The notes below the pieces were generated by a model. It was given only the letters and a program-made list of their open reading frames with translations. It did no database searches and was not told where the DNA came from. Shown piece by piece: positions 1 to 5,709 of a stretch of 41,020 nucleotides of DNA. The DNA comes from Asaia bogorensis (GTDB lineage Bacteria > Pseudomonadota > Alphaproteobacteria > Reyranellales > Reyranellaceae). Positions within the stretch are counted from its first letter, which is position 1; every line of letters begins with the position of its first letter. The translations under genes were made by a program, and so were the position numbers. The stretch spans positions 1 through 41,020 of the forward strand of contig CAMDQJ010000024.1 in assembly GCA_945905835.1 (NCBI GenBank), in the 5' to 3' direction.

Positions 1-93
1 CGAGATCAATCCCCACTCCGCATCCGTCAGATCGCTTGCGTAGCGCAAGGCCTCGCACCGATACTGCAGGCGGGTGGTTTCAGTCCAAGCCAT
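1..93 (-). CDS. IS5-family transposase, N-terminal 31 codons (partial)
   Basis: ATG at 93 (minus strand) opens a frame with no stop to the window edge. The 31 residues include the ETTR and YASDLTDAEW segments that characterise the N-terminal DUF4096-type domain of IS5-family DDE transposases. The catalytic DDE residues lie outside the window, so it cannot be said whether the transposase is intact. It is transcribed away from the truncated acyl-CoA dehydrogenase. Confidence 0.75.
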   Translation of the reverse strand, partial: MAWTETTRLQYRCEALRYASDLTDAEWGLIS

Positions 94-171
94 CGTCACC
101 TCCATTGAGCTTCGCAACCCAACGGAATAACAGCCGATTGAAATCACCCGACTTCTTTTTCAGTCAGCCTC
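1..171 (-). mobile_element. IS5-family insertion sequence, one end (partial)
   Basis: The minus strand from 93 down to 1 reads as an open frame beginning MAWTETTRLQYRCEALRYAS and continuing DLTDAEWGLIS off the window edge. This is the typical N-terminus of IS5-family (IS427/IS1031-like) transposases. The non-coding end of the element would lie between 94 and about 171. A plausible terminus is the minus-strand start GAGGCTGACTGAAAAAG at 171-155, next to TGA at 172-174 as a possible short target duplication; that boundary is inferred, since the other end is not in the window. The acyl-CoA dehydrogenase frame resumes immediately beyond it, so the element appears inserted in that gene. Confidence 0.75.
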
Positions 172-190
172 TGAGACGAAGACCGCCGGT

Positions 191-1279
191 TTGTGGAATC
201 TCTTTCTCCCTCATTCCGACCAGGGTGCCGGCCTCACGAACCTCGAGTATGCGCCGATGTGCGAAATGATGGGGCATTCGCACTTGGCGCCCGAGGTGTT
301 CAACTGCTCGGCGCCTGATACCGGCAACATGGAAGTGCTTGCCCGCTACGGAACGGCCGAGCAAAGAAAGATGTGGTTGGAGCCCCTGTTGGCGGGCAGC
401 ATCCGTTCGGCGTTTGCCATGACGGAGCCGGCCGTTGGCTCCAGCGACGCCACCAATATCGAAAGTCAGATCCTGCGCGACGGCGATGAGTACGTCATCA
501 ACGGCCACAAGTGGTTCACCACGGGCGCAACGGACCCGCGCTGCAAGATCATCATTTTCATGGGCAAGACCGATCCCGGCAACCCGAACCGGCATCTGCA
601 GCAGTCCATGGTCCTGGTGCCGAAAGACACGCCGGGCGTGCGCGTCGTTCGACCCTTACCGGTGTTCAATTTCTACGGCATGCCCGATCGGGCGGCGGAA
701 GTTGTCTTTGAGAATGTCCGCGTCCCGGTCGCAAATGTCCTGTTGGGTGAAGGGCGCGGCTTCGAAATCGCCCAGGGACGCCTCGGACCAGGGCGCATCC
801 ATCATTGCATGCGCCTCATTGGCCTGGCCGAACGGGCCTTGGAAAGAATGTGTGTCCGGACCCGGCAGCGGGTCACCTTTGGCAAGGCCATCGCCGAACG
901 CAGTGTGACCCTTGAGCGGATTGCGGAAGCGCGGATCCTCATCGAGCAGTCGCGACTGCTGACCCTCAAGGCGGCCCATATGATGGATACGGTTGGCAAT
1001 AAGGCCGCCCGAACCGAAATTGCCATGATCAAGGTCGCCGTCCCAAGCATGGCCTGCAAGGTGATCGACTATGCCATCCAGGCCTTTGGCGGCGCCGGGG
1101 TCACCAACGACTATGGACTGGCGGCTGCCTATGCGACCGCGCGTCTGCTGCGCATTGCGGACGGCCCCGACGAAGTCCATCGTAGTCAGATTGGCCGCTG
1201 GGAGCTTCAGCGTCATGCCAACAAGGCCCTCCTGAAACCGGACCCGCCCTATTCACCATCGAATCGCGCCGTCGGATGA
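191..1279 (+). CDS. Acyl-CoA dehydrogenase, 5'-truncated by the IS
   Basis: Flavin-dependent acyl-CoA dehydrogenase of the ACAD10/11-like group, which makes the 2,3-double bond in an acyl-CoA. Visible segments are [16 protein letters not shown] (FAD/substrate-binding), [23 protein letters not shown], the flavin-binding [14 protein letters not shown] and the C-terminal loop [15 protein letters not shown]. Only about 362-369 residues remain against roughly 400-430 for the family. Homology ([13 protein letters not shown]) begins at about 173, right at the presumed IS end, and a TAA at 128-130 closes the frame upstream. The N-terminal helical segment is therefore missing. TTG at 191 is only a formal start; no convincing ribosome site precedes it. 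It is probably a pseudogene, unless translation starts from IS sequence. The ligase and crotonase genes downstream suggest it was the dehydrogenation step of the same pathway. Confidence 0.8.
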
Positions 1280-1304
1280 GACCGTTGCGATGGTCAACAA
1301 GCCA

Positions 1305-2021
1305 TCAGTCGTTCGAAAGCGCCTTGGCAAGCATGATGAGATAGTCAGAGAAATTGCTGCGCTGAATATCCATATGGCTTCGCATGCTCATTTCGGCAGC
1401 CTGGGAGTCGCCGTCGAGAATCAGCTTCACGATTTGCCCATGCTCTGCGTGGGATTCCTGGATTCGATTCGGAAGATGGAAGCTGTAGTTACGATAGGGT
1501 TCCAATCGCCGGCGGAGCGCTCGAACTTGATTCTGCAGAATCTCGTTCTGGCATCCGCGATAGAGAGTGTCGTGGAACGCCAAATTGTGCCGGCTGTACT
1601 CCGTCGCATCACCGCTCGCCGCCGCCGTGCCCCCGAGTTCCTCCATTCTGGCGAGTTCGGCTTTGTCCTTCGCAGACATGCGGCGAGCACACAGTTGCGC
1701 ACACAGGCCCTCAAGATGGCACATCACTTCGTACATCTGCGTGAACTGCGACAGGGACATCGCCGCGGTGAACATGCCCTGGTTCGGGCGATACCCCACG
1801 AGTCCCGAGGTCACGAGGCGATTCAGGACCTCTCTGATTGGCGTTCGCGATACGCCGAACCGAACCGCGAGTTCTCGCTCGTCGAGGCGCCGGTTTCCCA
1901 GGATTCGCCCGCTGACGATGTCCTGTTCAATGGCCGCAATGATCTCTGATTGTGTCGAAGCGGCCTTTTCTGGAACTCGCGGGGTGCGGCTCTGGGTTCG
2001 CGCTGCAGATGAGGCTTTCAT
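1305..2021 (-). CDS. GntR-family transcriptional regulator (FCD domain)
   Basis: 238-residue FadR-type GntR regulator. The N-terminal winged helix (about residues 25-90) contains RLDERELAVRFGVSRTPIRE and a wing ending GLVGYRPNQGMF. The all-helical FCD ligand-binding domain follows, with the conserved HNLAFHDTLYRG and the late HAEHGQIVKLILDGD histidine segment that usually form the metal or acid effector site. It is transcribed divergently from the acyl-CoA ligase at 2248. The 226 bp between them carries a spaced GTATAC/GCATAC motif that is the likely operator. The second GntR gene at 4775-5491 has exactly the same length (717 nt), so the two are probably paralogues. The effector is unknown; a CoA-pathway organic acid is the natural guess. 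Confidence 0.9.
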   Translation of the reverse strand: MKASSAARTQSRTPRVPEKAASTQSEIIAAIEQDIVSGRILGNRRLDERELAVRFGVSRTPIREVLNRLVTSGLVGYRPNQGMFTAAMSLSQFTQMYEVMCHLEGLCAQLCARRMSAKDKAELARMEELGGTAAASGDATEYSRHNLAFHDTLYRGCQNEILQNQVRALRRRLEPYRNYSFHLPNRIQESHAEHGQIVKLILDGDSQAAEMSMRSHMDIQRSNFSDYLIMLAKALSND

Positions 2022-2247: not shown

Positions 2248-3849
2248 ATGTTGTCTTTGGAACTTGAAAATTGGACCTTGGTGGAGGCTCTGCGCGCGCA
2301 AGCCGAACGACGGGGCGGCGCTGTCTTTTGCCAATTTGCCGAGGGGAGGTCGCACACCTTCCGCGAGGTGGAGAGCGCCAGCGATGCCTTCGCTGTCGGG
2401 CTCGCCCAACGCGGGATCGGCCCCGGCGATCGCGTGATGATCGTGGCCGCCAACAGTTTCGAATTCGTCGTTGCATTTTTCGGCGTTCAGAAGCGGCGCG
2501 CGGTGTTTGTCCCGATCAACACTGAATTGCGCGGTAGCTTGTTGGAACATCAAATTCGCGATGCAAAGCCGAAGCTGATCGTTACGGACCGCGACCTGAC
2601 CGCTGGCTTGGCCATACAGGACCTTCCTGACTGTCGAGTTGTCGGCTTGCGTGATGGTGTTCTCCCAATTGGCGCAGGCAGCCTGGAACCGTTCGCGGAT
2701 CTTTGTGTGGCGCACGACCAGAACGCGCTATTGCGTCCAATGGCTCACGACATCGGGCTCATCCTCTACACGTCAGGCACCACCGGGCCGTCCAAAGGAG
2801 TGCTTGTTCCGCAGGCGCACGCCTGTCTCTTCGGCATCCAGCAGGCGCGGGCGCTGGATGTAGGCGAAGGAGATCGCTTTCTCATCGCTTTGCCGATGTT
2901 TCACGTGAACGCTCTTCTCATGTCTCTCGGCGCATGTGTTCTCAGCGGTGCATCGGCCTACGTTCTGGCACGCTTTTCGGCATCGCGCTGGCTCGAGGAT
3001 GTCAGGACCGCGCGGGCAACGGTGACCAACATGCTGGGCGTGATGGCCGAATTCGTCCTGCAGCAACCGCCGTCTTCGGGCGATAGGACCCATCAACTCA
3101 CGCGCGTCCTGGCGGTGCCTGTATCGGCCCAATGGGCTGACCACTTTCAGGATCGCTTCGGCGTTCAGCTCGTACAGACGTACGGCATGACGGAATGCAA
3201 CATGATTTCTTTCAGCCGGCGAGACGAAGAACTCATACCGGGCTGCGTCGGACCCGTGAGCGACGCGTATTTCGAAGTATCGATCGTCGATCCAGAAAGC
3301 GACCGGACGCTTGACGCGGGGGAAGTTGGCGAAATCGTCGTCCGCCCGCGCGTACCCTTCGGCGTCATGCAGGGTTACCTGAATCGGCCTGAAGTCACCC
3401 TCCGGGCGTGGCGGAACCTGTGGTTCCACACCGGCGATGCCGGAAAGATCGACCCGAGAGGCCGGCTGCATTTTGTCGATCGCATGGGCGATGTGATTCG
3501 GCGGCGCGGCGAGAACATTTCTGCCTTCGAGATCGAGCAGGTCTTGAACACGCATCCTGCAGTAGTCGAGTGCGTGGTGTTGGGCCTCAAAGTGGAAGGC
3601 GCGGGTGGCGAGCACGAAGTGTGCACCTATCTTGTCCTGCGGACGGCGTCGTTCGATCCAGGCCACTTCATTGATTGGTGCGTCTCGCGCCTTCCTCGCT
3701 ACGCCATTCCCCGATTCCTGTGCGTAGTGCCGGAGATAGAGAAGACGGCGACGGGCAAGACGCGAAAACAGGACTTACGCAACCGCGGGGTCACCCCGGA
3801 GATGTGGGACAGGGAAAAGGCGGGGCTTCGCCTGGCCCGTGGGGCCTAG
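2248..3849 (+). CDS. AMP-forming acyl-CoA ligase (CaiC/FadD-like)
   Basis: 533-residue ANL-superfamily acyl-CoA synthetase that activates a carboxylic acid to its CoA thioester via an acyl-adenylate. Core motifs are intact: the P-loop YTSGTTGPSKG (about 174-184), YGMTE (about 312), WFHTGDAG (about 392-399) with the ribose-binding Asp, and the C-terminal catalytic lysine in ATGKTRKQ (Lys about 504). The overall pattern resembles crotonobetaine/carnitine-CoA ligase-like enzymes, but the substrate cannot be read from sequence. It starts at ATG 2248, downstream of the shared operator and divergent from a GntR gene. A lactonase-like gene follows about 50 bp later on the same strand, probably in the same operon. 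Confidence 0.9.
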   Translation: MLSLELENWTLVEALRAQAERRGGAVFCQFAEGRSHTFREVESASDAFAVGLAQRGIGPGDRVMIVAANSFEFVVAFFGVQKRRAVFVPINTELRGSLLEHQIRDAKPKLIVTDRDLTAGLAIQDLPDCRVVGLRDGVLPIGAGSLEPFADLCVAHDQNALLRPMAHDIGLILYTSGTTGPSKGVLVPQAHACLFGIQQARALDVGEGDRFLIALPMFHVNALLMSLGACVLSGASAYVLARFSASRWLEDVRTARATVTNMLGVMAEFVLQQPPSSGDRTHQLTRVLAVPVSAQWADHFQDRFGVQLVQTYGMTECNMISFSRRDEELIPGCVGPVSDAYFEVSIVDPESDRTLDAGEVGEIVVRPRVPFGVMQGYLNRPEVTLRAWRNLWFHTGDAGKIDPRGRLHFVDRMGDVIRRRGENISAFEIEQVLNTHPAVVECVVLGLKVEGAGGEHEVCTYLVLRTASFDPGHFIDWCVSRLPRYAIPRFLCVVPEIEKTATGKTRKQDLRNRGVTPEMWDREKAGLRLARGA

Positions 3850-4774: not shown

Positions 4775-5491
4775 CTATTTGGCAGGCGTCGCGAAGGCGT
4801 CTGAAGGCAGGTTTTCAAGCGCGCTGCTTATTTGGCGAACATGTCGCCGTGCGGCCGTTTCCGCATCTCTGCCACTTCCCGCAAGAACAGCTTCTGCGGT
4901 TTTTCGGTAATCCGAGAAGCGTTCAGCCTCCGTCTCGAGATGGTACGGCCGGAACTGCACGCGCAACAGGTGCACATGATAGCGAACGAGAATCTGTCGC
5001 AGGGCGCTGTTTCCGCCGATGTCGATCAGCGTTCTGTAGAAGCGATTTCGCGCGCGGACCAATTCGAAGGAGTCCGGTTTGCCCTCGTAGGACGCCACTT
5101 CCTCGAGACTTGTCTTGAGAAGCGCTGCGTTGTTCGCATGATCGATATGTTCGGCGGCAGACCGCGCGGCGAACCCAATCAACACTTCGAGGAGTGCCAT
5201 CATATCGCGGGCTTCCGCGCGAGTGAGTCGGCGGATCTCGGCGCCGCGATGGAGGTTGAGAGTGACGATACCTTCCGCGCTCAGGAATCTGAGGGCTTCT
5301 CGGATGGTTCCTCGGCTCGTCTCGAATTCGCGCGTGAGGTCCGCTTCTATCAAACGCTGCCCGCTGACATAGCGGCCGAGATAGAGACCCTCGACGATGT
5401 GGCGGAAGATTTGCTCGGATGAACTCAGGGTACGTCGATTCAGCACGGTCCGAGCGGTCATCGGACCGGTTGGTTTTTTCAGGCGCGCCAT
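4775..5491 (-). CDS. GntR-family transcriptional regulator (FCD domain), second copy
   Basis: 238 residues from ATG 5491 (MARLKKPTGPM). The frame is open to 5638 but the extra 49 residues look non-coding. The winged helix contains RLIEADLTREFETSRGTIRE followed by RFLSAEGIVTLNLHRGAEI. The C-terminal FCD domain is helical with the RNRFYRTLIDIGG segment. It is transcribed divergently from the crotonase gene at 5799, and the gap carries operator copy 2 at 5710-5736. Same length as the GntR at 1305-2021, and both flank the same cluster, so the pair may bind the same sites with different effectors. Convergent with the lactonase gene, with an 11-bp gap. Confidence 0.9.
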   Translation of the reverse strand: MARLKKPTGPMTARTVLNRRTLSSSEQIFRHIVEGLYLGRYVSGQRLIEADLTREFETSRGTIREALRFLSAEGIVTLNLHRGAEIRRLTRAEARDMMALLEVLIGFAARSAAEHIDHANNAALLKTSLEEVASYEGKPDSFELVRARNRFYRTLIDIGGNSALRQILVRYHVHLLRVQFRPYHLETEAERFSDYRKTAEAVLAGSGRDAETAARRHVRQISSALENLPSDAFATPAK

Positions 5492-5709
5492 CAGGCGAAG
5501 CCCCTGGGTGGAATGACAACGAACTGCACCGGCAAACCTCATCTGCGAAGGGCTGCCCATGGAAGGGGAGGACACCCTGTTCGATTTTGTTGGGCAATTT
5601 TGTCCTGTTAAGGCGTCGAGGCAAGAGGCCGCGAGCATTGCTGGGGATATCCCAGATCCTCGGAACTCCCCGCCTTCAAGGCGGCCAAGCTACCGCATTT
5701 TCAGAGTAG

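Follow-up and report, generated by a model that had tools for sequence, protein, structure and literature searches.

The window analysed here, 41,020 nucleotides long, corresponds to the complete contig C24 in a draft genome of 185 contigs (4.07 Mb, 96.5% complete), and it begins inside an insertion sequence (IS) repeat. The end of an IS5-family element is joined there to the remainder of an acyl-CoA dehydrogenase (ACAD) gene, which is followed by genes for regulators and CoA-related enzymes. The features are:

1–171, minus strand: IS5-family element, transposase-5' end, interrupted by the contig start (from copies in the same genome and a copy in the congeneric genome G021)
1–93, minus strand: first 31 codons of an IS5-family transposase (from the translation and a plasmid-borne relative)
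128–130, plus strand: TAA inside the IS, in frame with the ACAD gene and closing its frame upstream (read from the sequence)
155–171, minus strand: terminal inverted repeat, reading GAGGCTGACTGAAAAAG from the outside inwards (five exact copies in the genome, all of them IS ends)
172–174: TGA, presumably one copy of a duplicated 3-bp TNA target (TNA follows the IS at 6/6 junctions in the genome)
173–1279, plus strand: ACAD gene that lacks its first 52 codons but is open in the rest of its frame (from Pfam, the ORF list and the N-termini of relatives)
1305–2021, minus strand: GntR/FCD regulator, convergent with the ACAD gene
2248–3849: acyl-CoA ligase, read separately behind the GntR gene
Other neighbours: an SMP-30 gene, a second GntR/FCD regulator, an enoyl-CoA hydratase, a glyoxalase-superfamily protein and a solute-binding protein

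Judged by its sequence, window 1–171 represents an IS5-family element, of which it contains the transposase-5' end. Translation of the minus strand from 93 to 1 gives MAWTETTRLQYRCEALRYASDLTDAEWGLIS, and residues 1–30 of a full-length, plasmid-borne IS5 transposase match this fragment at 80%. This relative scores 258 bits with NF033580 (transpos_IS5_3, NCBIfam; cut-off 110), which bears out the IS5-type transposase N-terminus reported in the initial annotation. The same protein matches an 85-residue C-terminal fragment on contig C35 at 75%, so that an IS5-type DDE transposase is represented by its two ends; the middle was absent from the matches of the transposase search in this assembly. Terminal inverted repeats are present as well, with the end starting GAGGCTGACTG in the window (171–155, minus strand; exact-copy search of the genome) and a distal end, GAGTCTGACTC, on C35. 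Both ends stand together in a complete copy in G021, which has GAGTCTGACTC at one end and CAGTCAGCCTC at the other and a length of about 932 bp; window 1–171 is 88% identical to the end of this copy; the partner end GAGTCTGACTC was also found in complete copies outside this genome.

The element resembles IS5-family elements with NF033580 transposases, some of them annotated as "IS5-like element ISRl2" in Rhizobium plasmids: the end is 72.5–78.6% identical at 95–100% query cover (30 listed of 193 matching records), and the likeness extends to the length of about 930 bp (in G021) and to the TNA flanks, whereas here just 171 bp and other fragments were assembled. In plasmids, near matches to window 1–1400 were limited to the IS end. 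The IS1031 subgroup of IS5 is described as having a TNA target preference, ends starting with GA and 3-bp direct repeats, which are TGA in that paper's own case (PMC12016507). The element may be akin to this subgroup, with which it has TNA sites and ends starting with GA in common.

The window's first 171 bases recur at four other places in the genome with 96–99% identity: at or near the starts of contigs C41, C23 and C146, and internally and partially on C37. All five copies, the window's included, agree as far as base 171 (...CAGTCAGCCTC), and beyond it their flanks diverge, save for 1–8 common bases:

C24: TGAGACGAAG
C41: TGAGATAGAT
C23: TGAGACGACA
C146: TAAGGTCGCC
C37: TCAGGGGGTT

Because the five copies agree to this base and then differ, the IS junction is placed at 171/172, exactly where it had been proposed to lie. 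The bases immediately after it are TGA, TGA, TGA, TAA and TCA, all of them of the TNA type; together with the distal end on C35, which is followed by TCA, this makes six of six junctions in the genome. The beginning of the contig in a multi-copy repeat could speak for a chimeric join made during assembly, but position 150 is G in the C24 copy alone and A in the other four. This private base, at a distance of 21 bases from the junction, ties the IS end to the C24 flank and argues against such a join. The junction also follows the TNA rule, and we regard a chimera as the least credible of the readings considered. The internal copy on C37 (9128–9289; L005 1501–1662) is a solo remnant of the same IS end, about 160 bp long, with unrelated DNA on its inside and TCA on its outside, a decayed copy.

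Eleven related copies elsewhere, namely ten from the 193 matching plasmid records and the one in G021, were inspected by reading their flanks by eye, and TNA follows the transposase-side end in all of them. Equal 3-bp TNA sequences stand on both sides in five of the nine complete copies (L131, L194, L195, L198 and L199), and the flanks are unequal in the other four (L130, L193, L196 and L132), so that TNA on one side alone is no proof of a duplication. The TGA at 172–174 is a plausible target duplication, as suggested earlier: it agrees with the TNA type of all six junctions, whereas the partner TGA was not found in the assembly. The complete G021 copy (L132 829–1760) is flanked by TTA and TGA, a pair that looks like the product of recombination after transposition.

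On the other side of the junction, the ACAD homology sets in at codon 173–175, the match starting from query residue 1–6 in each locus kept (the best 80 of 595), and the TAA at 128–130 is in frame with position 173; both observations confirm what had been read from the sequence initially. The frame is open over 131–1279, and its earliest in-frame ATG, GTG or TTG is the TTG at 191 (ORF list). The product from this TTG matches PF02771, PF02770 and PF00441, with the middle and C-terminal domains complete and the N-terminal domain partial, since the PF02771 match begins only at model position 48 of 113; it is a truncated member of the family. Among the matches listed, the best relative is that of Mesorhizobium sp. 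L-8-3 (80% identity), and the best within the genus is that of G041 (78%).

The gene belongs with an accessory ACAD group for which a count by eye gave members in 24 of 64 further genomes of the genus (at least 69% identity, E≤1e-100); these members are 69–78% identical over the retained part of the window gene. In this group the frame runs upstream to an N-terminus of conserved length (20 of 24 examined), whereas here it is cut by the IS. The frame extends upstream of a common LWNLFL motif in each of the 20 same-genus regions inspected, and an ATG lies exactly 58 codons before this motif in 18 of them; L178 and L189 have V at that position, possibly GTG, and L189 also has M 64 codons before the motif. 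The window retains six of these 58 codons, which means that 52 are missing and that the IS interrupts the coding sequence rather than the promoter. The initial figure of about 55 lost codons was therefore close, and the gene has indeed been cut off from its native start. The accompanying idea that the element replaced the promoter is not supported, given a junction 52 codons inside the coding sequence and the lack of any sigma-70-like site in 1–400 (consensus scan for sigma-70-type sites only; 0.1 expected by chance).

Of 125 columns with at least 97% conservation, the remainder of the gene differs from the consensus at 2; the 90 relatives compared differ at 0–4 of these columns, and 20 of the relatives at two or more (10 of 100 loci were left out because they had a stop or matched over a short length only). 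An open frame and such conservation suggest that the insertion is recent. They might also be taken as signs of a shortened, working dehydrogenase made from the TTG at 191 or from a transcript starting in the IS, but the conservation fits a recent insertion equally well, the first 58 residues of such a protein would be missing, its N-terminal domain is matched only from model position 48 of 113, and no consensus sigma-70-like promoter was seen in 1–400; we consider a working product very improbable. The insertion most likely switched the ACAD gene off, because the sole common start upstream of the conserved domains is a TTG inside the N-terminal domain.

Taken together, these observations point to transposition of an IS5-family element with a TNA target preference into codon 52/53 of an accessory ACAD gene, a reading to which we assign a probability of about 0.9. 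The element would have inserted at a TNA site within the gene and duplicated TGA in the process; the N-terminal 52 codons would lie, or have lain, past its far end; and the gene would be inactive as a result. Such an insertion explains the 5'-truncated dehydrogenase at the contig start. Disruption of an accessory gene by an insertion sequence is an ordinary event, and this would be a routine inactivation.

The far side of the element was sought in the assembly. The initial annotation had expected a second IS end with a matching TGA and the missing N-terminal codons beyond it, and neither was found. Searches with the transposase, with the end pattern (≤2 mismatches) and at the DNA level gave no far end flanked by TGA; the distal end was found only once, on C35, and its TCA flank means that it is not the partner of the TGA at 172–174. 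N-terminal queries from Bradyrhizobium and from G041 did not find the missing ACAD N-terminus in the assembly: the former matched only the ACAD loci on C31, C41 and C22 and C24 itself, the latter only those on C31 and C41, and C35 was matched by neither. The Bradyrhizobium query was sensitive enough to detect a 33-residue stretch of the C24 ACAD, 67% identical, at E=9e-11.

This result could be explained if, after the insertion, the IS mediated a deletion or rearrangement in which the N-terminus and the upstream DNA were lost and the TGA was left without its partner. Such an event is a sub-case of the insertion into codon 52/53, which covers both courses, and we hold it to be possible but unlikely. 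The N-terminus is missing from a 96.5% complete assembly in which the same search detected the short ACAD stretch; five transposase-side ends were found against one distal end; a solo remnant of the same end exists on C37; and four of the nine complete copies elsewhere have unequal flanks. On the other hand, the first 149 bases are exactly common to C24 and C41, and likewise to C23 and C146, as expected if contigs are cut at repeat branches. These four contigs look as if the assembly had broken them at branch points within the repeat, in which case missing partner contigs are unsurprising. Since C24 starts inside the repeat, the absence of the far side fits a simple insertion and an insertion with deletion alike. 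The five contigs cut inside the IS (C23, C24, C41, C146 and C35; four with the transposase-5' end, one with the distal end) all start in it, and no contig of the assembly was found to end in it, which weakens the case for deletion if, as may be, the assembler trimmed contig ends one-sidedly. A full-text literature search gave no paper on insertion sequences that lie at the ends of contigs in metagenome-assembled genomes. The other end of C24 has no match to the same IS, so that no composite transposon was seen on this contig.

A broader version, in which the element deleted adjoining DNA, and with it the beginning of an accessory catabolic locus, during a more general IS-driven loss from the genome of this lineage, appears less probable still. 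Of the 64 same-genus relatives, 62 have a larger genome than this one (4.07 Mb; rounded sizes), and the other two reach a completeness of only 74% and 78%.

The dehydrogenase had been proposed as the first step of an adjoining CoA pathway, which finds no support in the gene arrangement: the ACAD gene is convergent with the GntR gene, the ligase is read separately, and the pairing was not seen elsewhere. Among 65 genomes of the genus, the CoA-ligase was found at E≤1e-120 in this one only; since none of the 64 others has it at this threshold, the catabolic-looking block with the ligase at 2248–3849 may have been acquired horizontally. Eight window proteins were searched for in 80 loci of named records and in 20 same-genus ACAD regions, a few of which are curtailed by the end of their contig. 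The neighbourhood was present in none of these 20 regions, where the sole match other than ACAD was an enoyl-CoA hydratase (30%, in G041), and the 80 loci gave CoA-ligase matches of 24–33%, enoyl-CoA hydratase matches of 24–35%, one SMP-30 match of 28% and two weak matches of the first GntR. With the ligase found in this genome only at E≤1e-120 and the neighbourhood in none of the 20 regions, adjacency is all that links the dehydrogenase to the adjoining pathway. An annotation of the truncated ACAD as a functional enzyme, or as one that opens the pathway of the neighbouring genes, should be avoided.

A GntR protein like that at 4775–5638 lies near the ACAD gene in L009 (47%) and L019 (43%); the former, at L009 2881–3534, is from Mesorhizobium sp. 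L-8-3, near the closest ACAD relative among the named records. The genome also has two intact ACAD paralogues, on C31 (58%) and C22 (53%), whose frames are open through the N-terminal region and whose TGA stops, at residues 355 (C31) and 347 (C22) of the matched stretch, are natural ends.
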